Below are positions 3,726 to 18,378 of a stretch of DNA of 20,265 nt, piece after piece; positions within the stretch are counted from its first letter, which is position 1; every line of letters starts with the position of its first letter. The notes under the pieces are model-generated. The model worked only from the letters and a program-made list of their open reading frames with translations, made no database searches and had not been told where the DNA came from. Both the position numbers and the translations under genes were made by a program. This DNA comes from a virus: positions 1 to 20,265 of the IMG/VR virus record IMGVR_UViG_3300044960_000062, one strand, 5' to 3'.

Positions 3726-5114
3726 ATGGCCCCTCCTACCTTCTCTGGTGATAGTTTCGACATAGACAAAGGCTACTCTAAGGTCGCCCTTGGCCAAGGT
3801 CAGCCTTTGTTTGATTCTGACTTTAATGAGGCTCAAGATATTAAGCGTTACACTGAGCGTGCTCTAGGTAAGGCCCACAATCATCCTTTTTTCCAGAGTA
3901 TCTTCCTAAGTGGTGGGCCAGCACGGTATCAGCCTCATGCTCTGTATCTGTTGGATGGGCGTCAACTTATTCCTGCTGCTCCAGGTGTTTACCCTACAGC
4001 AGGAATCATTTTTGCCAGCTTTAATGCAGGAAATCTTCAGTTCATTATGTCTGATACTAGTAGATTCTATGCTAATGGGCGCTACTTTACAGTTCCAACA
4101 GGCGTGTTGTTGACCGTTCCTGCGTCTTGGCTAAACTCTATTCCTACTGTTGGCGCAGGTAACATGAAATTCTTTCTTTCTGCAATTATTGAGGATGAAC
4201 TCATAGACTCTACTGTTGACCCTAGCCTCATCAAGCCTATTGGCTCGTCAAATTTTGAGCCGAGTTCCCGCTACCGCACTAAGGTTACTTGGTTCGTTCA
4301 TTACGGCAATACTACTTCCCCTGCTGGACCTAATGTATCTCCTTGGACACTGAATAATAGTGTTTCCAATCCTATCAAGGGGTATGACTACCCTGCTAAC
4401 ATTGTTTATGACCCTTCTGGTTCCGTTAATTGGAAATCGCCCTTCAACTCTAATATGGTAGATGAGACTAAGTTTCTTGTTAGCTATGGTGTGTGGAGTC
4501 TCGCTACCGCAAGCACGTTTGACCCTGCCAGCCCTTTTATTTCTCCTAATATAGCTCTTCCCATTAAGGCTACGTATATTTCTACTGTAGGCACTACTCT
4601 TAGTTCTGCTTCTTTGCCACAGGCCACTGCTAAGGGATTCGCTGAACTGGGGATTCCCAGTGACTTGTCGCTGAGCAATAGCGTAGGCTCAGTATCCCCG
4701 ACAGTTAGCACTATCACTGGTCCACAGTCCCTTCCTGTGACTTTCCATCATGCTTCTGCACTTGGCGGACCTACCTACCGTTTAGTGACTGTGAGTTTTC
4801 GTCTCACTAGCACTGGCACAGCTCCTGTGTCTGGAAGAGTTTTTGTGCAGAGCAACCTATCTCCTGGCCCTAACACTAGCATTGTGCCGTATGGTCATTA
4901 TGAGTTGGCTGCATCGTCAAGCTCTTTTGGGCGTGTTTATGGTTTCCATGCCACGTTTCTTATCAGTCCTGGTGTCACTGATTTGTATTTCCAGGCTGAA
5001 GTTCCTTCCGCCAACATGGAAATCACTATATCACAAGTTTCTCTTCAAGTTTCTGAGCTGCGCCCGGTGACTACTCCTATAATGACTGCATATGATGCTC
5101 TTGCAGGGTTTTAA
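3726..5114 (+). CDS. Large baseplate- or fibre-associated protein, DUF4815/DUF6519-like N-terminus
   Basis: 462 aa, ATG 3726 after AAGGAG. The first ~45 residues contain DKGYSKVALGQGQPLFDSDFNEAQDI. This Y-V-QG-pl-DsDfNE pattern resembles the start of phage proteins placed in DUF4815 or DUF6519-like families, which sit at baseplates and tail tips. The remainder is Pro/Ser/Thr-rich and beta-strand-like, with no membrane segment, consistent with an extended virion protein. Family naming is from memory of the motif, not a search. It is the longest complete virion gene here and probably interacts with the preceding collar-like and gpI-like products, by synteny. Confidence 0.62.
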   Translation: MAPPTFSGDSFDIDKGYSKVALGQGQPLFDSDFNEAQDIKRYTERALGKAHNHPFFQSIFLSGGPARYQPHALYLLDGRQLIPAAPGVYPTAGIIFASFNAGNLQFIMSDTSRFYANGRYFTVPTGVLLTVPASWLNSIPTVGAGNMKFFLSAIIEDELIDSTVDPSLIKPIGSSNFEPSSRYRTKVTWFVHYGNTTSPAGPNVSPWTLNNSVSNPIKGYDYPANIVYDPSGSVNWKSPFNSNMVDETKFLVSYGVWSLATASTFDPASPFISPNIALPIKATYISTVGTTLSSASLPQATAKGFAELGIPSDLSLSNSVGSVSPTVSTITGPQSLPVTFHHASALGGPTYRLVTVSFRLTSTGTAPVSGRVFVQSNLSPGPNTSIVPYGHYELAASSSSFGRVYGFHATFLISPGVTDLYFQAEVPSANMEITISQVSLQVSELRPVTTPIMTAYDALAGF

Positions 5115-5131
5115 TAAAGGAGGGTGAATAA

Positions 5132-5365
5132 ATGGCAACTGTATATATAAAACGTCCTTGCTCTCCTGAGGAAAAGGCTAGATTGATTGAGTTGGTCTCT
5201 CCATTTCCTCTATATAATCAGCACTTTAAAACAGACAGTTCCGAAGTTTTGGCCAAGTTCGAGAACGTCAGCGATGAGTTCGTGAACTACTTGGCTACTT
5301 TGCCTGGTGTGTCCTTCATTACTGAGGACCAATTCAACGACGACCTTCCTAACTACCCCTCCTAA
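5132..5365 (+). CDS. Small unrecognised protein
   Basis: 77 aa with an excellent ribosome-binding site (AAAGGAGGG at 5117-5125, 6 nt before the ATG). Predicted order from the sequence is strand (ATVYIKR), helix (SPEEKARLIELV), strands and helix (EVLAKFENVSDEFVNYLATL), then PGVSFITEDQ. This beta-alpha-beta layout with a closing LPGVxFIxED faintly recalls the small ferredoxin-like fold of subtilisin-propeptide/I9 domains, but this is only a resemblance. It sits between the last virion gene and the lysis cassette and could belong to either. Confidence 0.68.
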   Translation: MATVYIKRPCSPEEKARLIELVSPFPLYNQHFKTDSSEVLAKFENVSDEFVNYLATLPGVSFITEDQFNDDLPNYPS

Positions 5366-5373
5366 GAGGTGTC

Positions 5374-5748
5374 ATGGATTGGCAAACTGTTTCTGTCATT
5401 CTTGGCTCAGTAGCTCTTGTGGCCGCCGCGGTTGCTGGTGCTGCCGTTAAGATTTACTCTAACAACACCCATTCGACACCTCCTAAGAGTGGGGATAGCT
5501 TGCTCGCCCGTGAAGTGGCAGATTTAAGGATAAAGTATGAAGAATTGGAGGCTAGAGTGCGTCCGTTAGAGAACAACCTTCCTGCAATGAACACCAAGCT
5601 CGACCATCTCCGTGACCAAGTGAACGACGCTCGTGGCGACATCACTAAACTCTACGATAAGATGGATGAGCATTTCCGTATGATAGTCACTCTTGTCAAT
5701 GGTGGAAAAACTGGTCCCTCAAAGGATAACATCATTCATAAGGGTTGA
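5374..5748 (+). CDS. One-TM coiled-coil protein, holin/spanin-like candidate
   Basis: 124 aa, ATG 5374, eight nt after the previous stop, with AGAGGTG as ribosome-binding site. Residues ~5-28 (VSVILGSVALVAAAVAGAAV) form one hydrophobic transmembrane segment with no cleavable signal site. A Ser/Thr/Pro-rich linker follows, then about residues 42-105 form a charged heptad-like helix (LAREVADLRIKYEELEARV, NTKLDHLRDQVNDARGDI, KLYDKMDEHF) suited to a coiled coil. It lies directly before the DUF5675-like gene and near a hydrolase, so a lysis role is likely. Holin, holin-associated (XhlA-like arrangement, order reversed) or inner-membrane spanin are all possible; the sequence alone does not decide. 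Confidence 0.68.
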   Translation: MDWQTVSVILGSVALVAAAVAGAAVKIYSNNTHSTPPKSGDSLLAREVADLRIKYEELEARVRPLENNLPAMNTKLDHLRDQVNDARGDITKLYDKMDEHFRMIVTLVNGGKTGPSKDNIIHKG

Positions 5749-5772
5749 TTCATAGGGGTTAATTCATAGGGG
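5731..5772 (+). repeat. Three 14-bp tandem repeats spanning a stop codon and RBS
   Basis: Three consecutive 14-bp units, 5731-5744, 5745-5758 and 5759-5772. The last two are TTGATTCATAGGGG and TTAATTCATAGGGG; the first is a diverged copy (ATCATTCATAAGGG). The TGA stop of the upstream gene lies in unit 2. Each unit ends in AGGG(G), and the last supplies the purine-rich ribosome-binding site for the gene at 5783. This looks like replication-slippage duplication of a translation-start module. Confidence 0.85.
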
Positions 5773-5782
5773 GCAATTAACC

Positions 5783-6235
5783 ATGGCTAAGCCCGTAGTG
5801 ACCATTACCCGCACAGAGTCTAGTGACGAAGGAACCTTTGGGGTCTTAACCTTCCAAGGCAGTGTTTTTTCATACAAAACAGGTGAACTTCCTTGGAGGA
5901 ATAACGCACCTGGTATATCCTGTATTCCTGCCGGCACTTATGAGTGTGCTACTTGCTTTAGTTGGCGTTTTATGAAGACCCTTTACGAAGTTCGTGGTGT
6001 AGAGAATAGGAGCAACATTCTCATTCACTCTGCTAATTGGATGGGTGATAAGAGCAAAGGTCTAAAGTGTCAACTTAATGGCTGTATCGCTCTAGGCAAG
6101 CGTATTGGGGAAATTGCTCCTTACAAGCAGAAAGCCCTACTATCTTCTAATGTAGCCGTAGAGCAATTTATGTTGGAACTTAAAGGTCAGGGCTTCACCC
6201 TCAACATAATCAACGCTTTTCCTGTGGTGTCATAA
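5783..6235 (+). CDS. DUF5675-like protein, putative lysis function
   Basis: 150 aa, ATG 5783 with AGGGGG at 5768-5773. Visible family features: ITRTESSDEGTFGVLTF at the N-terminus, then GELPWRNNAPGISCIPAGTYEC, a LYEVRGVENRSNILIHSAN block and LNGCIALGKRI. The E-PWR-N-xSCIPxGxY, YEVxxVxxRSxILIH and GCIALG motifs are those I associate with DUF5675, a phage-enriched domain often near lysis genes. The conserved His (ILIH) and Cys (GCIALG) spaced along the chain resemble an L,D-transpeptidase-like catalytic layout, but that comparison is inference. No signal peptide is seen, so release would need the holin candidate upstream. It may be the phage endolysin or a wall-modifying enzyme. Confidence 0.72.
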   Translation: MAKPVVTITRTESSDEGTFGVLTFQGSVFSYKTGELPWRNNAPGISCIPAGTYECATCFSWRFMKTLYEVRGVENRSNILIHSANWMGDKSKGLKCQLNGCIALGKRIGEIAPYKQKALLSSNVAVEQFMLELKGQGFTLNIINAFPVVS

Positions 6236-6283
6236 TGGCCTATAAACTTTAGACATGTGAATCATGTAAATAAGGAGTAGCCA

Positions 6284-7291
6284 ATGGGGACTCAAATCTA
6301 CTTTGCTACTAATCGTTGTGCCGTGAATGACCCACCTACGGACTTCAATCATAACTTTAGCTCTAAAGGCCTTCAAGATTTACGTTTTGGTAAGGCTATT
6401 ATTGACGTCAATGCAAAGCCTGAGAATTGTATCATTGACTTGGCTGTCGCCCCTGAAGTTATTGACAGTAATAACCCTTCCTTGTCAATTCTTGGAAGTA
6501 AGGCCATTTACAAAGATATCAAAGATAAAATGCTTTCCGGGGGCAAAGATACCGTTGTAATGATTCATGGCTATGCTACGTCTTTTAAGCAAGCTCTTAA
6601 AGGTGCGGCTATTTTTAAAGAGGTTTATAAGAAATTCGACTTTAATGTTGTGATGTTTACTTGGCCTTCTGATGGCCGCAATCTTCCTCAAGACTACGGT
6701 AATGACCGCCACGATGCTAAAGCTTCTGGAATGGCTGTTGCCAGAGCTATGATGAAGCTGGTTGATTTCTTACGGCCTAAGAATCTTGGTCAGCCTTGTG
6801 GCCAAAAGCTTCATCTGCTCGCTCATAGCATGGGCAACTATGTTTTGAGAAACGCCCTTTGGGAACTCAAAAAGATGTATCCAGGACAACACCTTCCTAC
6901 TATTTTTGAGAATATCTTTCTTATGGCGGCAGATGAAGATAATGACGCCTTTGAAATGGAGCAAAAGTTTCGAGATTTGCCATCCCTAGCAAGGCAGGTT
7001 AATGTTTATTTCAATAAGTATGATAAGGCTCTTTGGTGCAGTGACCTTACTAAGGGCAACCCTGATCGTCTTGGTAATACAGGCCCACGAAAGCCTTTAG
7101 ATGTTCCTGCTAAAGTTGTTTTGATTGATGTAAGCGCTTTAGACCCTTTTACTGATTTTATTGGCCATGGTTATTATGATAGTTGGAAAGGGGTCATAGA
7201 TGATGTTACGGCTGTTTTTGAAGGTTTAGAACCTGATAAAATTCCCGGCCGTCATTATGTTCCTTCCGCCAATAAATATCGTTTAGGCTAG
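6284..7291 (+). CDS. DUF900-type alpha/beta hydrolase
   Basis: 335 aa, ATG 6284 after AAGGAG. The N-terminal IYFATNR is typical of DUF900 hydrolases (YATNR). The core is visible in order: VVMIHGYATSF (HGY oxyanion region, about residues 91-101), VVMFTWPSDGR, a GNDRHDAKASG helix, HLLAHSMGNYVL with nucleophile Ser182 in A-H-S-M-G, FLMAADEDNDAF with candidate acid Asp217 or Asp219, and FIGHGYY with His295. The catalytic set is therefore complete. Family members are esterase/lipase-like enzymes of mostly unknown substrate. There is no signal peptide or membrane segment. It is the last gene before a strong terminator and follows two lysis-type genes, so a role in cell-envelope lipid or ester cleavage is plausible; an intracellular role is equally open. 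Confidence 0.8.
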   Translation: MGTQIYFATNRCAVNDPPTDFNHNFSSKGLQDLRFGKAIIDVNAKPENCIIDLAVAPEVIDSNNPSLSILGSKAIYKDIKDKMLSGGKDTVVMIHGYATSFKQALKGAAIFKEVYKKFDFNVVMFTWPSDGRNLPQDYGNDRHDAKASGMAVARAMMKLVDFLRPKNLGQPCGQKLHLLAHSMGNYVLRNALWELKKMYPGQHLPTIFENIFLMAADEDNDAFEMEQKFRDLPSLARQVNVYFNKYDKALWCSDLTKGNPDRLGNTGPRKPLDVPAKVVLIDVSALDPFTDFIGHGYYDSWKGVIDDVTAVFEGLEPDKIPGRHYVPSANKYRLG

Positions 7292-7325
7292 TCAGATTTC
7301 CCACCATACGACTCCTGCCAAACAT

Positions 7326-7377
7326 AGAGCCTTAACTAGGACCGCCCATCCTAGTTAAGGCTCTCCCACCTTTTTTT
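7326..7377 (+). terminator. Intrinsic terminator closing the late operon
   Basis: Perfect 16-bp inverted repeat AGAGCCTTAACTAGGA (7326-7341) and TCCTAGTTAAGGCTCT (7349-7364) with a 7-nt loop CCGCCCA, then CCCACC and a run of seven T at 7371-7377. The T run is 6 nt past the stem, slightly far for a textbook terminator, but it lies 35 bp after the hydrolase stop and before a gene-free region. I infer that it ends structural and lysis transcription. Confidence 0.85.
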
Positions 7378-7445
7378 AAGATTTTTAAGGGAATTCAAGA
7401 TTTTAAGGGTAGTTAAGATTTCTAAGGGAACTTAAGGTTTTTAAG
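7376..7445 (+). repeat. Phased TTAAG array
   Basis: Eight TTAAG-like pentamers begin at 7376, 7385, 7395 (TCAAG), 7403, 7413, 7422 (CTAAG), 7432 and 7441, spaced 8-10 bp, several followed by GG. Similar TTAAG clusters occur at 3105-3134. The spacing approximates one helical turn, as expected for cooperative protein binding or curved DNA; function is inferred. Confidence 0.65.
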
Positions 7446-7584
7446 GCCCTCTTAATCTTAACTAGGTAATTAGGACGTTAATTTTTCTTGGATTTTAAGC
7501 CTTTATTAATTTTAGCTTTCTTATGGCGGTTAAGAATCTTAATAAAAATCCGATTTTTTCTTTATTTTCAACGATTTTATTTTG

Positions 7585-7613
7585 TTGACCGATTTCTCTT
7601 ATTGTTATATACT
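7585..7613 (+). promoter_or_regulatory. Sigma70-type promoter
   Basis: -35 TTGACC at 7585-7590 (5 of 6 matches to TTGACA), a 17-bp spacer, and -10 TATACT at 7608-7613 (5 of 6 matches to TATAAT). Transcription would start near 7620 and run through the repeat region toward the helicase gene at 8037, giving a leader of about 417 nt. It is the best consensus promoter I found in the window. Confidence 0.72.
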
Positions 7614-7639
7614 TAGTCATGCCGAAAAAAAGTATGGAA

Positions 7640-7687
7640 TTAAGGGCTAAGAATTAAGGGTTAAAACCAAGGGTTAGGGCTTAGGAA
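7640..7687 (+). repeat. Heptad array of TTAAGGG/TTAGGG type
   Basis: Seven near-heptads in a row: TTAAGGG (7640), CTAAGAA (7647), TTAAGGG (7654), TTAAAAC (7661), CAAGGG (7668, six bases), TTAGGGC (7674) and TTAGGAA (7681). The period is 7 nt, different from the 8-10 nt of the array at 7376-7445, though the core letters are the same. It may have expanded from the same motif. Confidence 0.65.
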
Positions 7688-7724
7688 TTGAAGCTCTATT
7701 ATTACGATTTTAAGAATAGATAAT

Positions 7725-7911
7725 TTGGCTTTGTTATAAAGTATAACTACCTATAGCGTATTCTATATAGATATACAGATTCTATATGGATATACGTAAT
7801 ACATACTATAAGCTAGCTATAGTGCTTCTTATAGAGTAATCAAGTTCCGAAAAAAGGTATAGTTACGAAAAAAGGTATGGGCTGATTAAGAATTTTGGCT
7901 ATGTTATAAAG
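7725..7911 (+). promoter_or_regulatory. Two copies of a TTGGCTNTGTTATAAAG element, candidate extended -10 promoters
   Basis: Copies at 7725-7741 and 7895-7911, exactly 170 bp apart, differ at one base. Each contains TGTTATAAA, which fits an extended -10 promoter (TGnTATAAA) at 7735-7740 and 7905-7910. No good -35 lies at the expected distance in either. The second would give a leader of roughly 120 nt before the helicase start codon. Alternatively both are binding sites for a phage-encoded factor. Confidence 0.5.
7760..7795 (+). repeat. Two 17-bp direct repeats, 19-bp period
   Basis: ATTCTATATAGATATAC at 7760-7776 and ATTCTATATGGATATAC at 7779-7795, one mismatch, separated by AG. Each is almost wholly A/T with an imperfect internal symmetry. 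The tandem arrangement at close to two helical turns resembles origin iterons or operators; it could also serve as an unwinding element. Confidence 0.7.
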
Positions 7912-7934
7912 ATAGTTATTGAATACGTAACAAT

Positions 7935-7986
7935 CGGCATTAAAGCTTAGCTCAATGCCGAAATGGCGAAGCTTTGTCTTGATGCC
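7935..7986 (+). promoter_or_regulatory. Leader RNA with interleaved alternative stems
   Basis: Four perfectly complementary segments: A CGGCATT (7935-7941), B AAAGCTT (7942-7948), A' AATGCCG (7954-7960), B' AAGCTTT (7969-7975). A-A' and B-B' interleave, giving an H-type pseudoknot topology. A second partner for A, ATGCC at 7982-7986, would instead allow a nested long hairpin with B-B' inside. It lies 51 nt before the helicase start codon. Another small hairpin (TGCGTT 8002-8007 with AACGCA 8017-8022) sits just before the ribosome-binding site. I infer possible translational or transcriptional control of the helicase operon. Confidence 0.45.
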
Positions 7987-8036
7987 TTAATTTTGCAATT
8001 TTGCGTTGAACGCCTTAACGCACCAGGAGACATAGT

Positions 8037-10300: not shown

Positions 10301-10673
10301 AGAAATTAAGGCCGCTGGTGACTTACTTAATGATGGTAAAGCATACACCATCGGAGGTAAGAGAATCATTCTTTACCCTATTGGCACTTTGGCTACAGAG
10401 TGTGGTAAGTCGCCCGTAACTTTGCGTAAGTGGGAGGCTGATGGTCAGCTTCCTAAAGCTCCTTTCCGTGACGGCAGTAACCGGCGTATGTATGCTAAGG
10501 AGCATATCGCTCTTATTAAAAAACTTGTCGCAGATGAGAATCTGACTAGTGGGGTTCATTTCAAAAAGACTAACTTTGCAAAGAAGGCTCTAGAAGGGTT
10601 TAAGAAATTGACCCTTGATAAACTAGAAGCTCACGTTACAGAAGACGTTACAGAAGAAAAGGAGAAGCCATGA
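10284..10673 (+). CDS. MerR-type helix-turn-helix DNA-binding protein
   Basis: 129 aa. ATG 10284 lies inside the end of the previous gene (17-nt overlap), with GGAG about 10 nt upstream. Residues ~31-73 carry a MerR-like winged helix-turn-helix: YPIGTLATECGKSPVTLRKW, then EADGQLPKAPFRDGSNRRMYA and a following helix. The L-A-xxGxSPxTLRxWExxGxLP core and the R-Y/M-Y wing are clear. The C-terminal part is Lys-rich, then acidic; no effector-binding domain is present, so it is a DNA-binding module only. It may regulate the early operon or bind the repeats of the control region, or act like an excisionase-type architectural protein; no integrase is seen. Confidence 0.75.
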   Translation: MNRANKEIKAAGDLLNDGKAYTIGGKRIILYPIGTLATECGKSPVTLRKWEADGQLPKAPFRDGSNRRMYAKEHIALIKKLVADENLTSGVHFKKTNFAKKALEGFKKLTLDKLEAHVTEDVTEEKEKP

Positions 10674-10978
10674 CAAAACTACTACGGAAGAAGAAGCGCT
10701 CAGCAGCGAGCGTTTTAGAAACAGCAGTTTCTCAGCCCAATTTAGGAACTTCCACACCTCAGGCTAGGGTTCGTTTTGAAAAGACCATTCGTTTGTCCCA
10801 TCAATACCAGAGTGTGGAATTTAAAGTTGGTCTTGACCTTCCTTGTTCTGTTGGAGACGAGCCTGCTACATACGAAGAATGTCGGAAAATCGTTGACGAT
10901 CAACTGGAGCGAGCTGTTGCTTTATCTATGGCGGACACTCAAAAATTGACTGAGCTTGCCGCTAAGGTGATTCAATAA
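10670..10978 (+). CDS. Small unrecognised protein of the replication module
   Basis: 102 aa, ATG 10670 overlapping the previous stop (ATGA) with GGAG upstream. A basic Ser/Ala-rich N-terminus (LLRKKKRSAAS) is probably disordered. The core reads RVRFEKTIRLSHQYQSVEFKVGLDLPC, then YEECRKIVDDQLERAVALSMAD. This beta-hairpin plus long helix pattern, with a hydrophobic LxLPC and ECxxxVDDQLE, recalls a group of small phage proteins located beside replication genes whose function I do not know. Confidence 0.7.
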   Translation: MTKLLRKKKRSAASVLETAVSQPNLGTSTPQARVRFEKTIRLSHQYQSVEFKVGLDLPCSVGDEPATYEECRKIVDDQLERAVALSMADTQKLTELAAKVIQ

Positions 10979-12180: not shown

Positions 12181-12618
12181 GTGGAGGAAGGTAACATTTC
12201 TAATAGAATGGCCCCTTTCCTAGCTTTTGACGCTGAGCTTCTTATAGGGGTTCCAGCTAGGGATTTGTTGAAGGTGAAAGTCCTCGAATCCCTTAGGCTC
12301 TATAATCAGTCTAAAAGGTATTACCTTTCTGTTCCTGGTTCCGCAGAGTGTTTGGAAGTTTTGTCCCGTTTTTACAACATTCTGATTGTAAAGGTGGGGC
12401 CTAAGCATACGTGGGAGCCAACCAGAGACCTTTTGGCCACTTACTATTACAACACTCTTTGTTGTGTTAAGAGCGAGAATGAGTTGAAGGAACAACTTAG
12501 TCACTTCAGGGTAGTTAACTACTTGACTATGATTCCTACTCGGCGCTCTATGTTTCCTTTTGCTACTGAGTTTAGCGGGTGGGATGAACTTCGCATTATT
12601 AAAGCAACCCCAGTTTGA
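12181..12618 (+). CDS. Unrecognised 145-aa protein, GTG start
   Basis: GTG at 12181 is preferred because GGGAGG (12170-12175) lies five nt upstream; the internal ATG at 12208 has no such site. The order of elements looks like a small alpha/beta fold: strand LAFDAELLI, helices, strand RYYLSVPG, helix SAECLEVLSRF, strand YNILIVKVG, helix TWEPTRDLLATYYY, strand TLCCV, helix, strand RVVNYLTMIP. The layout faintly recalls a HAD-like Rossmann domain, but the expected DxD at the first strand is DAE and the following motifs do not match, so enzyme activity is doubtful. Function unknown. Its end overlaps the ribosome-binding region of the helicase gene. Confidence 0.7.
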   Translation: MEEGNISNRMAPFLAFDAELLIGVPARDLLKVKVLESLRLYNQSKRYYLSVPGSAECLEVLSRFYNILIVKVGPKHTWEPTRDLLATYYYNTLCCVKSENELKEQLSHFRVVNYLTMIPTRRSMFPFATEFSGWDELRIIKATPV

Positions 12619-12625
12619 GGAGTCT

Positions 12626-13915
12626 ATGCCTACAAAGCTGGATATAGAATCTGCTTTCATAGCATCCGTTGTAGAACAAAAGGCTTTAAAGCAAGCTCTC
12701 AACGAGAAGATAGATGAGACCTTCTTTTTCGGCGCTAACAACAAATTGGCCTTTAGATGGTTGCTCAATTATTTTCGTCAATACGGAGGCATGCCTTCTA
12801 AGAAAGTTTTTTGTTCTGAGAATAAGTCTTTCGAGTGGGTTAGCCAAGAAGAGCCTACAGCTTTTTGGATAGAGAAATTAAAGGCTCGAAAGAAGAGAGC
12901 CATCCTTAAAGATGTAGGCGAGAAGTTTTGGGCAGAGCTCCAAGACGGTAATACCGAAAAAGCCTACTCCCTTCTTAAAGAGGGCATCCACAAGGTCAAT
13001 ATTGAGCTTGAAAGCTCATCAGACAAAGACTGGACTAAAGGAGCTATCAAGCGAGCCAAAGACATTAAGGCTCTTAAAGACCGTCAAGGTTTGTTAGGTA
13101 TTCCTACTCCTTGGAAGCAGTTCGATGACCTTTTCATGGGTTGGCAAGATACCCAACTTATTACAGTGTTTGGGAGACCATCAACAGGAAAGACCTTTGA
13201 AATCTGTCTTTACGCTTACCATGCTTGGAAGCATGGTTTTAAGCCCCTTATCATTTCTAAGGAAATGGGGGTTCCTGAAATTGAGAAGCGCCTTGACGCC
13301 ATGAACACTAAGATTGGCCATGAAAAGCTGCGCAAAGGTAATTTAAGTAAGTCCGAAAGGATTATTTTGTTCAGGGAAGCTAAGAAGCTTAGTGCTTCGC
13401 AAGTTCCGTTTTACATTTCTGCAGAAGAAACCTTAGAGGGTGGCGGAATTAGTAACGTCGCCGCCAAAGTAGAGGAGTATCAGCCAGATATCGTGTTTAT
13501 TGATGGTGTGTATTTGATGGATGATGAAGAAGGAGGTAAAAGTAAAACCGAGAATCTTTATAACATTACTAGAGGGCTGAAGCGTGTTGCAAGGGTTTAT
13601 AAGGTTCCCATTATAGTTACTACCCAGGCTGGACGTGGCAGTGCCAGCGTTAAGAAAAACGATAGGCTTTCTGGTGTTCAATGGTCTGACAGTTTTGGTC
13701 AAGATTCAGACGTAGTAATTGAACTGATTCAAACGGCTTCTATGAAAGGAGCTAAAGAGATGTTACATAGGGTAGCTAAACAGCGTGAAGGTATGGTTGG
13801 TGACCTATACACCAAGTGGGATTTAAATCTTATGGATTTTAGCCCTATAAACGCCACAAGTGAATACGTTGAGAGCATTGAGATTGAGGCTCAACAAGAA
13901 GCTGAGGCTCTATGA
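12626..13915 (+). CDS. DnaB-like replicative helicase
   Basis: About 429 aa from ATG 12626, chosen over an upstream TTG at 12560 because TTTGAGGAG directly precedes it and the N-terminus (PTKLDIESAFIASVVEQKALKQAL) then resembles the DnaB N-terminal domain (DIE-x-xFIASVV). The RecA-like core shows Walker A GRPSTGKT at residues 183-190, TVFGRPSTGKTFE, the DnaB-typical SKEMGVPEIEKRL, a Walker B-like DIVFIDGVYLM, and TTQAGRG followed by GQDSDVVIEL. This is the hexameric DnaB/Gp4-type replicative helicase. With the primase, SSB and polymerase downstream it forms the phage replisome. Confidence 0.88.
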   Translation: MPTKLDIESAFIASVVEQKALKQALNEKIDETFFFGANNKLAFRWLLNYFRQYGGMPSKKVFCSENKSFEWVSQEEPTAFWIEKLKARKKRAILKDVGEKFWAELQDGNTEKAYSLLKEGIHKVNIELESSSDKDWTKGAIKRAKDIKALKDRQGLLGIPTPWKQFDDLFMGWQDTQLITVFGRPSTGKTFEICLYAYHAWKHGFKPLIISKEMGVPEIEKRLDAMNTKIGHEKLRKGNLSKSERIILFREAKKLSASQVPFYISAEETLEGGGISNVAAKVEEYQPDIVFIDGVYLMDDEEGGKSKTENLYNITRGLKRVARVYKVPIIVTTQAGRGSASVKKNDRLSGVQWSDSFGQDSDVVIELIQTASMKGAKEMLHRVAKQREGMVGDLYTKWDLNLMDFSPINATSEYVESIEIEAQQEAEAL

Positions 13916-14055
13916 GACTTTCATTGATTCTGCCGACTTTTGTAATTGTTGTCAGCGCAGGAGCAGGTATTGTTTATCTGCTCTGCGGTAACATCAAGAT
14001 GGGTGTCTATTGGATTGGCACAGCAGTAATTAATGCTGCTTCAACCTATTGGTAA
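13912..14055 (+). CDS. 47-residue small membrane protein
   Basis: ATG at 13912 overlaps the helicase TGA by four bases (ATGA), and the frame closes at TAA 14053-14055. The peptide has one strongly hydrophobic segment (LSLILPTFVIVVSAGAGIVYLL) followed by KMGVYWIGTAVI, so one or two membrane passes. The stop lies 13 nt before the primase start codon and only a few bases before the primase ribosome-binding site. The overlap, good coding length and lack of any other frame here make it credible. It could be a superinfection-exclusion, membrane-anchoring or toxin-like small protein; unknown. Confidence 0.6.
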   Translation: MRLSLILPTFVIVVSAGAGIVYLLCGNIKMGVYWIGTAVINAASTYW

Positions 14056-14068
14056 AAGGAAAATAGTC

Positions 14069-14980
14069 ATGCTAGATGAGCTTTTAAGGCGCTATCCAAT
14101 CAATAGGTCAAGGCCCACTAGCAATGGGCTTATTGGTGCTTGTCCTTTTCACAAAAATGGTCAGGAAAAGAAGCTCTCATTCAGTATGAATGAGGAGGGT
14201 TTGTGGACGTGCTTTTCCGGTTGTGGTTCAGGTAACTTGGCTCAGTTTATTCATAAATATGCCAAGGTTCCTATGGGTAAGGCCGTCATGCTCGCTGAAG
14301 AACTTACGATGGCAGAAGCTTTTTCTGAAAGCCTTAATAATAAGGGTTTTGTTGACCGAAAAGCCGCTGAAGAACAAGAGCAGGAAGAAAACGAAGAAAG
14401 GTTTAGGCAACAGTTCAAGTTCTACAAGTTGTTTAAGCATGACTATTTGTTGAATCTAGGCTTTACTACAGAAACTCTTGAAGCTTTCCGTATAGGATAC
14501 GACCCTGACAATGACCGTGTTGTTTTTCCGATTTTTGATAAAGATGACAAGCTCAGGGGGTTTCAATATAGAGGCACTAAAGAGAAGATTTACACTACTG
14601 AGTTCGGTTTTAAGAAAAATAACTGGCTCTTCGGTGAACACCTTCATAATAAGCGTCATGGTATGCCTTGGCTAGTAGAAGGTCCGACAGACGCAATGTG
14701 GCTTTATCAGAAAGGTTTCCTAGCATTTTCCTGTATGGGGGTTAAGTTTTCTGAGCGGCAAGCTGATAGATTGTGCGCCCTCGGGTATGATAAAATTCTA
14801 CTTGCTTTCGACAATGATGACGCAGGTAGGGAGGCTGTTGGTAGAGCTAAACTCATTCTAGGGAGGCGTGTTGATGTTTACCTAATGGACTACTCGAACA
14901 TGGCACAGAAAGACTGGAAAGGAATGTCGAAGAAAGATTTACTGTATTTTTCATCCACTGCAAAACTCGCTAGGAGATAG
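14069..14980 (+). CDS. DnaG-type primase (CHC2 zinc finger and TOPRIM)
   Basis: About 303 aa. ATG 14069 is chosen because AAAGGA lies 8 nt upstream; the upstream ATG at 14033 has no ribosome-binding site and falls inside the small membrane gene. N-terminal zinc site: Cys25 and His28 (CPFH), then Cys48 and Cys52 (CFSGC), a CHC2-like finger with C-x3-C instead of the usual C-x2-C. TOPRIM motifs: EGPTD (Glu204 to Asp208) and DNDDAG (from Asp248). Short for a full DnaG, lacking a C-terminal helicase-binding domain, as in many phage primases. It likely makes RNA primers for the phage replisome. Confidence 0.86.
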   Translation: MLDELLRRYPINRSRPTSNGLIGACPFHKNGQEKKLSFSMNEEGLWTCFSGCGSGNLAQFIHKYAKVPMGKAVMLAEELTMAEAFSESLNNKGFVDRKAAEEQEQEENEERFRQQFKFYKLFKHDYLLNLGFTTETLEAFRIGYDPDNDRVVFPIFDKDDKLRGFQYRGTKEKIYTTEFGFKKNNWLFGEHLHNKRHGMPWLVEGPTDAMWLYQKGFLAFSCMGVKFSERQADRLCALGYDKILLAFDNDDAGREAVGRAKLILGRRVDVYLMDYSNMAQKDWKGMSKKDLLYFSSTAKLARR

Positions 14981-15778: not shown

Positions 15779-17662
15779 ATGAGCATCAAACCTCCTAAGA
15801 AACGTCCAGTTATTCTGTCTCCTAAAGTGTTGGACGGGTATGTTGCAGAAATGCTTAAAGGTGACTGCGCTACCGTGGACATTGAGACAGATGATAGTTT
15901 GGATGTTATTCATAATCCTACTATTGTTGGGATTTCGTTTTATAACGAGAAGATTGAAGGCCCCTTGTTTGTGCCTATTTCGTTTAATACGTTTAAAAAC
16001 CAGATGACCGTTCAGGCGTTGGTAAAGAGCATCCAGCCGTTATTTAGTGCGGAGCATTTTACGATGATAGCTCACAACGCCAAGTTTGACATCGCCATCT
16101 TAGAACACTTTGGCGTTAAGACTAACTGGGGCCGTATTCATTGCTCTCAGGTGCTCTCATTCCTTCAGAATGAGAACAAACGAACTGGACTTAAGGACAG
16201 AGTGTTTTGGGAGTTCAACTACCGAATGAAGAGTCTTTCTGACATTCAGGGCAAACGCAACACTAAGGCGTTTATTCCTATGGTTGACCTTCCAGCAGAT
16301 AAAATTACTGATTATTGCTCTGACGACGCCTACTGGTGCTATTGGCTTTATCAGAAATACAAGAAGGAGCTACAGCAAGATAAGTTTCTCTGGAACTACT
16401 ACATTAAGCTTGAAGCCCCTTTTGTCAAAGTTTTAAAGGATATTCATAAAAGGGGTGTTCACATTAATAAGCCGTTCCTTGAGAAGCTGGATAGGAAAGT
16501 AGGTAAGCTGAAAGATAAAGCAGAGGAAGATATACTTAAACTTGCCAGGAAGCCAATTAACGTCAACAGCCCTGCGCAGTTGACAAGGCTTCTATTCAAA
16601 GACTTGCACTTACACCGCACATTGCCCAATCCAGAGATTCTGGCCACTAATAGTTCTGGTTTTGCGGCAAACGCCGAAAACTTAGAAATTTTAGCTGGTA
16701 AGCATCCGATTGTTGATAGGATTCTCGACTATCGGATGTATGCGAAGTTAAAGACTACTTACACTACGGGGTTGTTGGAAAGACTCGGTGACGGATACAA
16801 AAAGATTCACTGTAACTTCAATCAAACGGTTGCAGTTACAGGACGTCTTAGTTCGTCCGATCCGAATTTACAGAACATTCCATCAAGGTCTGACTTAGGG
16901 AAACAAGTGCGTTTGGCTTTTGTTCCCCCTAAAGGTCATTCTTTTATTGTTGCTGACTATTCCAACATTGAGTTGAGGATTTTGTGCCATATGAGTCAAG
17001 ACAAGACTATGTTGGAAAAGTTCTCCAGCAATGAAGACCTTCATGCGCTTACGGCAAGTTTCATTTTCAAGAGACCGCTCAGCGAGTGTGATAAATCTAC
17101 TCCTGAGGGTAAAAAGAGAAGAGAGGCTGGGAAGACTTTGAACTTCGGTATCATGTATGGTATGGGGCCTTGGGCTTTAGCTAAGAGTCTTAATATCTCC
17201 GAAGAAGAAGCCCAGAGATTTATTGATGAGTATTTCACCCTATACCGTGGCGTTTATGAATACATTAAAAAAGTTCAGGATTTTGCCACTAAGAATGGAT
17301 ACGTTAGAACGCTGTTTGGGCGCAAACGTCGCCTTCCTGAAGCCCAACTTTTAGATGGGTTCTTCAAAAAAGAGCGTCAACGTGCTTTGCGCCAAGCGGT
17401 AAATTCTATTATTCAAGGAACACAGGCAGAGATTATAAAACTTGCCATGATTAAGCTTCAGAAGCGCTGTAAGAAGGCCAAATTGCGTCTTCAAGTTCAC
17501 GATGAGCTGGTGGCAAGTGTCCCTACTACCGATGCTCAGGAAGTCGCCAAAGTCTTCAAAGAGTGCATGATGTTCCCTACTGACGATGACAAGAGGCAGA
17601 TTCTTTCAATTCCAATGGAAGTTGATCTTGTTATTGTTGATAGTTGGGGAAAAGCCAAATAG
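15779..17662 (+). CDS. Family A DNA polymerase with 3'-5' exonuclease
   Basis: About 627 aa from ATG 15779 (TAGGA upstream), preferred over a TTG at 15743 that lies inside the hairpin loop. Exonuclease motifs: DIET (Asp34, Glu36), HNAKFD (His99, Asp104), and Tyr179-x3-Asp183 (YCSDD). Polymerase motifs: A VADYSNIELR (Asp393), B R-REAGKTLNFGIMYG (Lys452, Phe456), C QVHDELVA (His574, Asp575). The exonuclease and polymerase are both intact; no 5'-3' exonuclease domain is present, so this is the T7/T5-type replicative form. Phe at the Lys+4 position of motif B matches E. coli Pol I rather than the Tyr of T7. Confidence 0.93.
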   Translation: MSIKPPKKRPVILSPKVLDGYVAEMLKGDCATVDIETDDSLDVIHNPTIVGISFYNEKIEGPLFVPISFNTFKNQMTVQALVKSIQPLFSAEHFTMIAHNAKFDIAILEHFGVKTNWGRIHCSQVLSFLQNENKRTGLKDRVFWEFNYRMKSLSDIQGKRNTKAFIPMVDLPADKITDYCSDDAYWCYWLYQKYKKELQQDKFLWNYYIKLEAPFVKVLKDIHKRGVHINKPFLEKLDRKVGKLKDKAEEDILKLARKPINVNSPAQLTRLLFKDLHLHRTLPNPEILATNSSGFAANAENLEILAGKHPIVDRILDYRMYAKLKTTYTTGLLERLGDGYKKIHCNFNQTVAVTGRLSSSDPNLQNIPSRSDLGKQVRLAFVPPKGHSFIVADYSNIELRILCHMSQDKTMLEKFSSNEDLHALTASFIFKRPLSECDKSTPEGKKRREAGKTLNFGIMYGMGPWALAKSLNISEEEAQRFIDEYFTLYRGVYEYIKKVQDFATKNGYVRTLFGRKRRLPEAQLLDGFFKKERQRALRQAVNSIIQGTQAEIIKLAMIKLQKRCKKAKLRLQVHDELVASVPTTDAQEVAKVFKECMMFPTDDDKRQILSIPMEVDLVIVDSWGKAK

Positions 17663-17670
17663 GAGGCTAT

Positions 17671-18378
17671 GTGCGAAAGTTCTTGCTGTCAATACTCTTG
17701 CTAGTTCCAGTGGCGTTGCACCCCCATGAATGGGATTTACGAAGTCCTAGCAGGGAGGATTTTTTAAAGTTGTCCTATCGTTTAGCTAGTAGAGCCCAAA
17801 TGTTTGTTGGGCCAAAAGCAGAAGAAAATAAGAAAAGGGTTATTAGTGTCACTCGGGATGTATACGACATTTGGTATGAGCATCGTAAAGGAAAGCTCCG
17901 GGCTATCAAAAGCCCGACATTGCCACTGGCGCTGTTTTACACTGAAAGTCATTTACGGCCCATAGTGAGTGTAGCTAACTGTTATGGGATTTCTCAGATG
18001 GATTTAAATAGCGCCAAGTGGATTTGCAAGCTCTATGGCATTCCATACAACCCTAAGACCCTTCATATAGACCTTATGAAGAATCAAAAGTTCAATTTGC
18101 TTGTAGGAATGTGCGAGCTAAATCAGCATTTATTGAATTGGAATGGCAATGTTGACCTCGCCATCCTTGGATATAAATGCGGGGATAATCGAGTTAAACA
18201 GCTTATTCTTAATGGAGAACTAAAAGGTAGATACGAATGGTTCTACGCCAACGTCTTTAAATACCACAGTATTTTGGAAGGGCATTCTCGGTTTAAACTG
18301 GTTCCTGTCCTTAATCCTTATAATGATAATGGAGAGCTGACTATCGAAAAATACTGGAGACCTAACCGTAAGCCTTAG
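17671..18378 (+). CDS. Secreted lytic transglycosylase (SLT-type)
   Basis: 235 aa from GTG 17671, chosen because AGGAGG at 17661-17666 precedes it by four nt and the protein then starts with a signal peptide (MRKFLLSILLLVPVALHP). The nearby ATG at 17669 is out of frame. The catalytic region shows the SLT pattern: ALFYTESHLRPIVSVAN with candidate catalytic Glu92, then CYGISQMD (GISQM at residues 106-110), AKWICKLYGIPYNP, and NVDLAILGYKCGDNRV, matching goose-lysozyme-like transglycosylases that cleave peptidoglycan with 1,6-anhydro products. It is oddly placed between polymerase and recombinase genes, far from the lysis genes. It may open the wall for DNA entry or later release, or serve another wall function. 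Confidence 0.78.
   Translation: MRKFLLSILLLVPVALHPHEWDLRSPSREDFLKLSYRLASRAQMFVGPKAEENKKRVISVTRDVYDIWYEHRKGKLRAIKSPTLPLALFYTESHLRPIVSVANCYGISQMDLNSAKWICKLYGIPYNPKTLHIDLMKNQKFNLLVGMCELNQHLLNWNGNVDLAILGYKCGDNRVKQLILNGELKGRYEWFYANVFKYHSILEGHSRFKLVPVLNPYNDNGELTIEKYWRPNRKP

Follow-up and report, generated by a model that had tools for sequence, protein, structure and literature searches.

A DUF900-family hydrolase gene beside DUF5675 at the end of a phage tail-gene block, with a possible accessory role in lysis

The window, the whole 20,265-base virus record analysed here (IMG/VR IMGVR_UViG_3300044960_000062), closes its tail-gene block with a gene whose product, by its sequence, certainly belongs to the DUF900 family. 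A DUF5675 gene lies directly upstream. We tentatively favour the reading that the DUF900 protein may be an accessory envelope esterase of lysis, comparable to mycobacteriophage LysB by analogy only. Below, we describe the gene and its neighbours, follow both families through other viruses and bacteria, and weigh this reading against three others.

Gene order at the end of the tail block

The left third of the window is a rightward block that contains a weakly tail-fibre-like ORF, a Tail_P2_I protein and unknown ORFs, with the DUF900 gene as its final member. Since the block holds tail genes, it is probably transcribed late. An ORF with no assigned family (5132-5365, + strand) stands just before a 124-residue protein (5374-5748, +) with one predicted N-terminal transmembrane (TM) segment at residues 6-24 and a coiled-coil-like remainder, which is a candidate holin or inner-membrane spanin. 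An earlier reading of the sequence alone (the sequence-only reading) had called this protein holin-like, and family searches did not back that name: no holin or spanin family passed its cut-off. The family matches were sub-cut-off and to coiled-coil-type families only, and the sole match in the lysis category was to an Rz-like spanin (PHROG 739, E = 0.054). A lipobox scan of positions 5000-7400 found no Rz1-like lipoprotein.

The two genes that complete the block are also on the + strand. The first encodes a 150-residue protein (5783-6235) that matched PF18925 at E = 2.7e-23, in agreement with the DUF5675-like gene proposed earlier. The second, after a gap of 48 nt, is the DUF900 ORF (6284-7291), which starts with ATG and encodes 335 residues.

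A perfect 16-bp hairpin (7326-7364, +; MFE -26 kcal/mol, z -8.19) begins 34 nt past the DUF900 stop codon and is followed, after a 6-nt spacer, by seven T (7371-7377). None of 200 shuffles was equally stable. A simple terminator scan did not list this hairpin because of the spacer, as the scan requires a T-run 0-2 bases after the stem. Hairpin and T-run together form a terminator-like end to the rightward block. The surrounding 7292-8036 region, roughly 745 nt of AT-rich and apparently non-coding DNA, separates the tail block from the replication block and contains numerous short TTAAGG/TTTAAG-like repeats (seen by eye) besides the strong hairpin.

Replication genes follow this gap, including those for a SNF2-type helicase, DnaB, primase, PolA and RecA. 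One further gene (17644-18378, +) encodes an SLT-type lytic transglycosylase (PF01464 E = 1.7e-6, 28 bits for a cut-off of 21.3) with an N-terminal hydrophobic segment at residues 6-24. It is located in the stretch from polA to recA, a long way from the presumed lysis genes, and is a candidate for a second enzyme with which this phage, outside its cassette, could cut the wall. An Rfam search of the window gave no match. When viral contigs were scanned, the window tail protein found no relative and the window polymerase found two distant contigs (L002 and L003).

The DUF900 protein is a predicted lipase-like hydrolase

The sequence-only reading had placed a DUF900-type alpha/beta hydrolase at 6284-7291, and both family and fold searches agreed. 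PF05990 (DUF900) matched residues 81-304 at E = 1.3e-29 (103.7 bits against a cut-off of 20.5), and a family search at the DNA level also gave DUF900 (104.4 bits). Pfam detected this single hydrolase domain and no other. We aligned 22 DUF900 sequences (alignment A3), comprising the window protein, two viral proteins and the proteins of 19 of the 21 bacterial loci described below (without L024 and L031). Ser182, Asp217, Asp247, Asp282 and His295 were invariant in 22/22 sequences and Asp219 nearly so; the five invariant residues are also retained in the viral proteins L047 and L050. The previously noted Ser182, Asp217/219 and His295 are thus all present, with Asp247 and Asp282 as additional conserved acids. 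The nucleophile motif around Ser182 reads A-H-S-M-G.

An AlphaFold2 model of the protein (pLDDT 88.6, pTM 0.90) predicted a lipase-like alpha/beta hydrolase, in which strands 176-181, 208-214, 236-243 and 278-282 precede Ser182, Asp217, Asp247 and His295, respectively. The order of serine, acid and histidine fits that of alpha/beta hydrolases in both the alignment and the predicted model. According to the pertinent parts of a 2024 review (PMC11878206), the acid in these enzymes is usually found at strand 7 and in many clusters at strand 6; the same parts give the function of the DUF900 family as unknown. The candidates for the catalytic acid are therefore Asp217 (after strand 6) and Asp247 (after strand 7). 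Judged by the alignment and the model, the ORF is a candidate for an intact serine hydrolase.

Among the best 1000 PDB chains ranked by Foldseek, 962 reached Z >= 5 against the model. The best fold matches were the PhaZ7 depolymerase and hornet phospholipase A1 (Z 13.0, rmsd 3.9-4.3, 228-231 aligned residues), and others included Tle3 (Z 12.5) and Candida lipase B (Z up to 12.3). Such matches to a predicted model would indicate the fold rather than the substrate. Sequence searches of the PDB gave one match at E = 0.32 with the window protein and none at E <= 0.1 with alignment A3. The sole PHROG match was phrog_36159 (E = 0.043), which has no assigned function. A search for an export segment in the protein found no hydrophobic stretch over threshold.

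DUF5675 models as a YkuD-type fold and lies near small predicted-membrane ORFs

DUF5675 was found by tblastn in 133 of 50,697 phage records, and the proteins were mostly called hypothetical among the 40 matches listed. The literature excerpts that mention DUF5675 place it in Vibrio phages, as an annotation without function. An AlphaFold2 model of the window protein, built from a 35-sequence alignment, had a pLDDT of 96. Plain Foldseek found nothing below E = 0.001 with this model. After realignment of the best Foldseek chains, L,D-transpeptidase-type structures filled the top 23 rows (Z 7.9-10.3 over 98-117 residues), and the next row had a Z of 3.5. These top rows included Pgp2 (Z 10.3), Csd6 (9.7), Tlde1a (8.9), DpaA (7.9), LdtMt2 and Bd1075, of which we take Pgp2, Csd6, Tlde1a and Bd1075 to be YkuD-type structures. 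DUF5675 thus models as a YkuD/L,D-transpeptidase-type fold, and the window protein is a candidate peptidoglycan-peptide enzyme.

Seven DUF5675 residues (Glu35, Ile48, Gly51, Tyr53, His82, Asn85 and Cys101) were invariant in 35/35 sequences. The YkuD catalytic motif includes a histidine and a cysteine, for which His82 and Cys101 are candidates. A PDB sequence search with the DUF5675 alignment (A12) gave one unconvincing match (E = 0.46). The portion of the literature relevant here describes DpaA as a YkuD-family enzyme that frees Lpp from the wall, also lists LdtMt2, and counts transpeptidases, carboxypeptidases and endopeptidases among YkuD enzymes (PMC12729407). In a PhaLP database table of phage lytic proteins, YkuD has a count of 10 (PMC8310338).

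We determined how often small membrane proteins are encoded near DUF5675 in 98 virus loci (L075-L172; 18 from one scan and 80 kept of the 87 matched in another), in 91 of which DUF5675 was called as an ORF. Small ORFs were mechanical calls of 40-200 residues. Among small ORFs on the same strand, a TM segment was predicted in 126 of the 306 lying no more than 1 kb from DUF5675, compared with 40 of the 427 at a distance of at least 3 kb (odds ratio 6.8); those at 1-3 kb were omitted. The Fisher p of 4.5e-24 overstates this excess, given the relatedness of the loci, the mechanical ORF calls and the omitted 1-3 kb range. At least one small predicted-membrane ORF lay within 1 kb in 77 of 88 DUF5675 loci.

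The suggestion that GTA-type holins with three TM segments stand beside many DUF5675 genes was not upheld by a profile search, in which GTA_holin_3TM (PF11351) matched 4 of 50 DUF5675 records, 2 of them over the cut-off. The two over-cut-off matches (L077 and L079) coincide with the ORF next downstream of DUF5675. One Salinibacter phage has PF11351 about 750 nt downstream of DUF5675, and inspection by eye of L076 and L078 showed small hydrophobic or signal-like ORFs after DUF5675.

From the predicted YkuD-type fold and the small predicted-membrane ORFs, a lysis neighbourhood around DUF5675 is plausible, and the family may represent phage wall enzymes of a class so far overlooked. The sequence-only reading had assigned the window genes to a phage lysis cassette. 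Its neighbourhood is plausible on these grounds, whereas its holin is without family support. The DUF900 gene lies 48 nt downstream of a gene whose own putative lysis role is read from predicted fold and neighbourhood.

DUF900 and its pairing with DUF5675 in other viruses

A tblastn search with four DUF900 queries (the window protein, two other viral proteins and one bacterial protein) found no matches in the 50,697 phage records (E <= 1e-3 for the window query), and a viral-contig scan with the window protein alone found no relative. Three alignment scans of IMG/VR recovered 14 virus records. DUF900 passed the family cut-off in every one of them (13 of 13 in one search and the fourteenth, L073, in another), although the match of one (L051) was weak at 26 bits. 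Our literature search found no publication joining DUF900 to phage.

Two viruses in the 13-record IMG/VR set, L043 and L010, also carry DUF5675. With the window added and L073 left out, DUF5675 is present in 3 of the 14 DUF900 virus records tested, for which the 133 in 50,697 found by tblastn is a rough yardstick only, the collection and method being different. DUF5675 lies upstream of DUF900 on the same strand in both viruses, by 202 nt in L043 and by 192 nt in L010, where an 87-residue ORF overlaps both genes. Terminase- and portal-like genes occur near the pair in each (the L010 portal identified by Pfam, the others by eye), and by eye a lipoprotein-like ORF follows the pair in L043. DUF900 homologues therefore do occur beside DUF5675 in phages other than the one in the window, where the sequence-only reading had taken their absence from other lysis cassettes as an argument against itself.

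L010 shows two further features. A single reading frame (12294-14465) encodes a portal protein (PF06381) together with an inorganic pyrophosphatase-type domain (PF18823), and a DUF6527 gene (10555-10839; PF20137) comes right after DUF900, slightly overlapping its end.

Other viral DUF900 genes have different surroundings. L047 lacks DUF5675 and has a 117-residue ORF directly before DUF900, whose resemblance to the window TM protein is at chance level (19 residues, E = 0.50). No TM segment passed the threshold in the small ORFs adjoining DUF900 in L010 and L047, which weakens the lysis reading and strengthens the metabolic alternative discussed below. No recognisable lysis genes were found near DUF900 in L009 or in L049 and L050, which look like one virus. 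Six records (L040, L041, L042, L045, L046 and L048) encode long DUF900 proteins that group with plasmid copies in the tree, and by protein length and tree position we took them for host sequence.

Conversely, DUF900 was present in only 2 of the 98 DUF5675 loci, both of them the known pairs. The other 96 records were without DUF900 (49 of 50 in one group, whose lone positive was the DUF900 locus L073, and 47 more); several of these records are short, the smallest being about 4 kb, and absence there is not proof. The two families are thus not always together. DUF900 appears to be an occasional addition to DUF5675 regions, and DUF5675 does not need DUF900. A survey of DUF900 beside phage lysis genes, as the sequence-only reading had proposed, therefore yielded two further cases within a pattern that is rare by both counts.

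Bacterial relatives and origins of viral DUF900

A scan with an alignment query, covering one genome per species, identified 21 bacterial DUF900 loci with 34-46% identity in the best-matching segments, 20 of them covering nearly the whole length and one (L031) partial. Most are Alphaproteobacteria according to the record titles, which also name two gammaproteobacterial assemblies and a verrucomicrobial one. The window protein is 34-48% identical to its bacterial relatives and is colinear over nearly its full length with a branch of Roseomonas, Reyranella, Elioraea and Rhodobacter proteins; its closest kin are bacterial proteins of single-domain size. The neighbours of cellular DUF900 genes look metabolic or housekeeping (L004 by annotation; L011, L012, L014 and L016 by eye), with no obvious phage context at these five loci. 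DUF5675 was over the cut-off in none of the 21 genomes of close DUF900 relatives, with one sub-threshold match.

In a 34-row DUF900 tree, the window protein fell among a bacterial subfamily, although its placement was not firm. The six viral rows require four label changes, at least two of which are forced by well-supported branches. L047 and L050 grouped with a Dinoroseobacter plasmid DUF900 protein (100/100). This three-row clade, which joins the viral L047 gene (6299-7273) to plasmid gene L008 (5860-6831), suggests exchange between phage and bacterial replicons. Two other bacterial plasmid DUF900 genes (L005, 7410-9146, and L006, 7428-8981) adjoin CHAT-domain or caspase-family genes, which may point to a defence-like or cell-death setting.

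A single clade of five viral rows was rejected (p-AU 3.6e-37; L009 was omitted from this tree for its very long branch), whereas a single clade of the window, L010 and L043 was not (p-AU 0.139; the L010 and L043 branches are long). These trees suggest that viral DUF900 genes have at least two origins and that the DUF5675-DUF900 pairing may have arisen once. The notion of three independent pairings was accordingly not borne out.

Possible roles of the DUF900 protein

How might a bacterial-type hydrolase contribute to lysis? The phage would have captured a serine esterase of bacterial type and placed it last in the rightward block, after the TM protein and DUF5675. We infer that the two soluble enzymes would gain access to the envelope through a membrane lesion formed as infection ends. 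There, DUF5675 would cut or trim peptidoglycan stem peptides, or links between protein and peptidoglycan, and the DUF900 enzyme would hydrolyse an ester in a membrane lipid or an envelope-linked acyl group, weakening the last membrane. This accessory lysis role is the reading we rank first, and we put it forward as a possibility. It is favoured by the shared gene order in the window, L043 and L010, the conserved catalytic-type residues, the lipase-like model and the excess of TM ORFs beside DUF5675. Against it count the presence of DUF900 in just 2 of 98 DUF5675 loci, the position of the L009 and L049/L050 genes away from lysis genes, the other candidate muralytic gene of this phage (17644-18378), the lack of an over-cut-off holin or spanin family for the TM protein, the cellular relatives without obvious phage context, and the small ORFs of L010 and L047 that fell below the TM threshold.

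Only somewhat less likely is that the gene encodes a host-derived metabolic or host-takeover (moron) hydrolase with a small cytoplasmic ester or lipid as its substrate; the last position in the block would then simply be a convenient site. Extra genes tend to accumulate at operon ends. The nearest DUF900 relatives are bacterial and sit among metabolic-looking genes, viral DUF900 genes are not monophyletic, and some of them (L009 and L050) are away from lysis genes, all of which speak for this alternative. It accounts less readily for DUF5675 directly upstream in three viruses, though few phage records hold DUF5675.

A more specific form of the lysis reading, which we consider unlikely, is that DUF5675 and DUF900 form a two-enzyme envelope-dismantling module of phages with Gram-negative hosts, in which a YkuD-fold enzyme that cuts wall peptides or releases outer-membrane proteins anchored to the wall would be followed by a membrane-lipid esterase. 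The enzymes would achieve by catalysis what spanins do mechanically, with the YkuD part modelled by analogy on the freeing of Lpp by DpaA. A Gram-negative host is our guess from the bacterial relatives of DUF900.

An improbable alternative is a virion- or surface-directed esterase, for example an O-acetyl or receptor-removing esterase, that would act on surface sugars in entry, release or superinfection exclusion. Phage surface esterases exist, and the window gene follows tail genes (Tail_P2_I and the weakly tail-fibre-like protein); however, the protein has one hydrolase domain alone and no hydrophobic export segment over threshold, and its closest kin are bacterial and of single-domain size. 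Least credible is a role in counter-defence or signalling, with the enzyme removing a molecule of host defence: the two plasmid genes beside CHAT-domain or caspase-family genes point that way, but they sit on another tree branch and PADLOC matched no family to the window protein at E <= 0.01. A PADLOC SIR2 match to a viral DUF900 relative (P0004, E = 0.0058) was weak and taken as chance.

Returning to the accessory lysis role, spanins are the textbook answer to envelope opening for phages of Gram-negative bacteria. If true, the recurrent pairing of a YkuD-fold enzyme with a serine esterase would offer a well-defined candidate for enzymatic envelope opening that experiments could probe, and it gives a concrete hypothesis for two families, DUF5675 and DUF900.

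Comparison with known systems

DUF5675 shares its predicted fold with YkuD-type enzymes (Pgp2, Csd6, DpaA, Tlde1a and LdtMt2), and its invariant histidine and cysteine are candidates for their catalytic residues; it differs in having no convincing PDB sequence match. The DUF900 protein shares its sequence family, catalytic-type residues and predicted fold with bacterial DUF900 hydrolases, from which it differs in being phage-encoded and in lying beside DUF5675.

Enzymatic opening of the envelope at phage release is well described for mycobacteriophages, where LysB is the precedent in the sections of the literature relevant here (PMC6116114). LysB hydrolyses the ester joining the outer membrane to the wall. 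Like LysB, the window protein would be a phage alpha/beta serine hydrolase whose gene has those of a candidate wall enzyme and a small membrane protein close by. Identity with LysB fails on both sequence match and nucleophile motif, in keeping with the earlier view that the two are different families: the window protein had no tblastn match (E <= 1e-3) in any of the 50,697 phage records, and it has A-H-S-M-G where the LysB motif, as given in the same sections, is G-X-S-X-G (PMC6116114). In a viral fold search with the DUF900 model, Lysin B proteins appeared at ranks 37 and 43 only (E = 6.6e-3 and 1.5e-2), and a distant structural kinship is possible.

For Gram-negative phages, the part of the literature covered offered one lysis-cassette lipase, a GDSL lipase encoded upstream of holin and endolysin in a Pseudomonas syringae phage; killing by a chimera depends on the catalytic residues of this lipase (PMC12173070). 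As described in the portion of that paper used here, this enzyme differs from the window protein in its GDSL family, its carbohydrate-binding domain and its measured activity, the window protein being known from sequence and model (PMC12173070). What the two would share is a lipolytic enzyme encoded beside lysis genes in a phage of a Gram-negative host (PMC12173070), the host of the window phage being Gram-negative by our guess.
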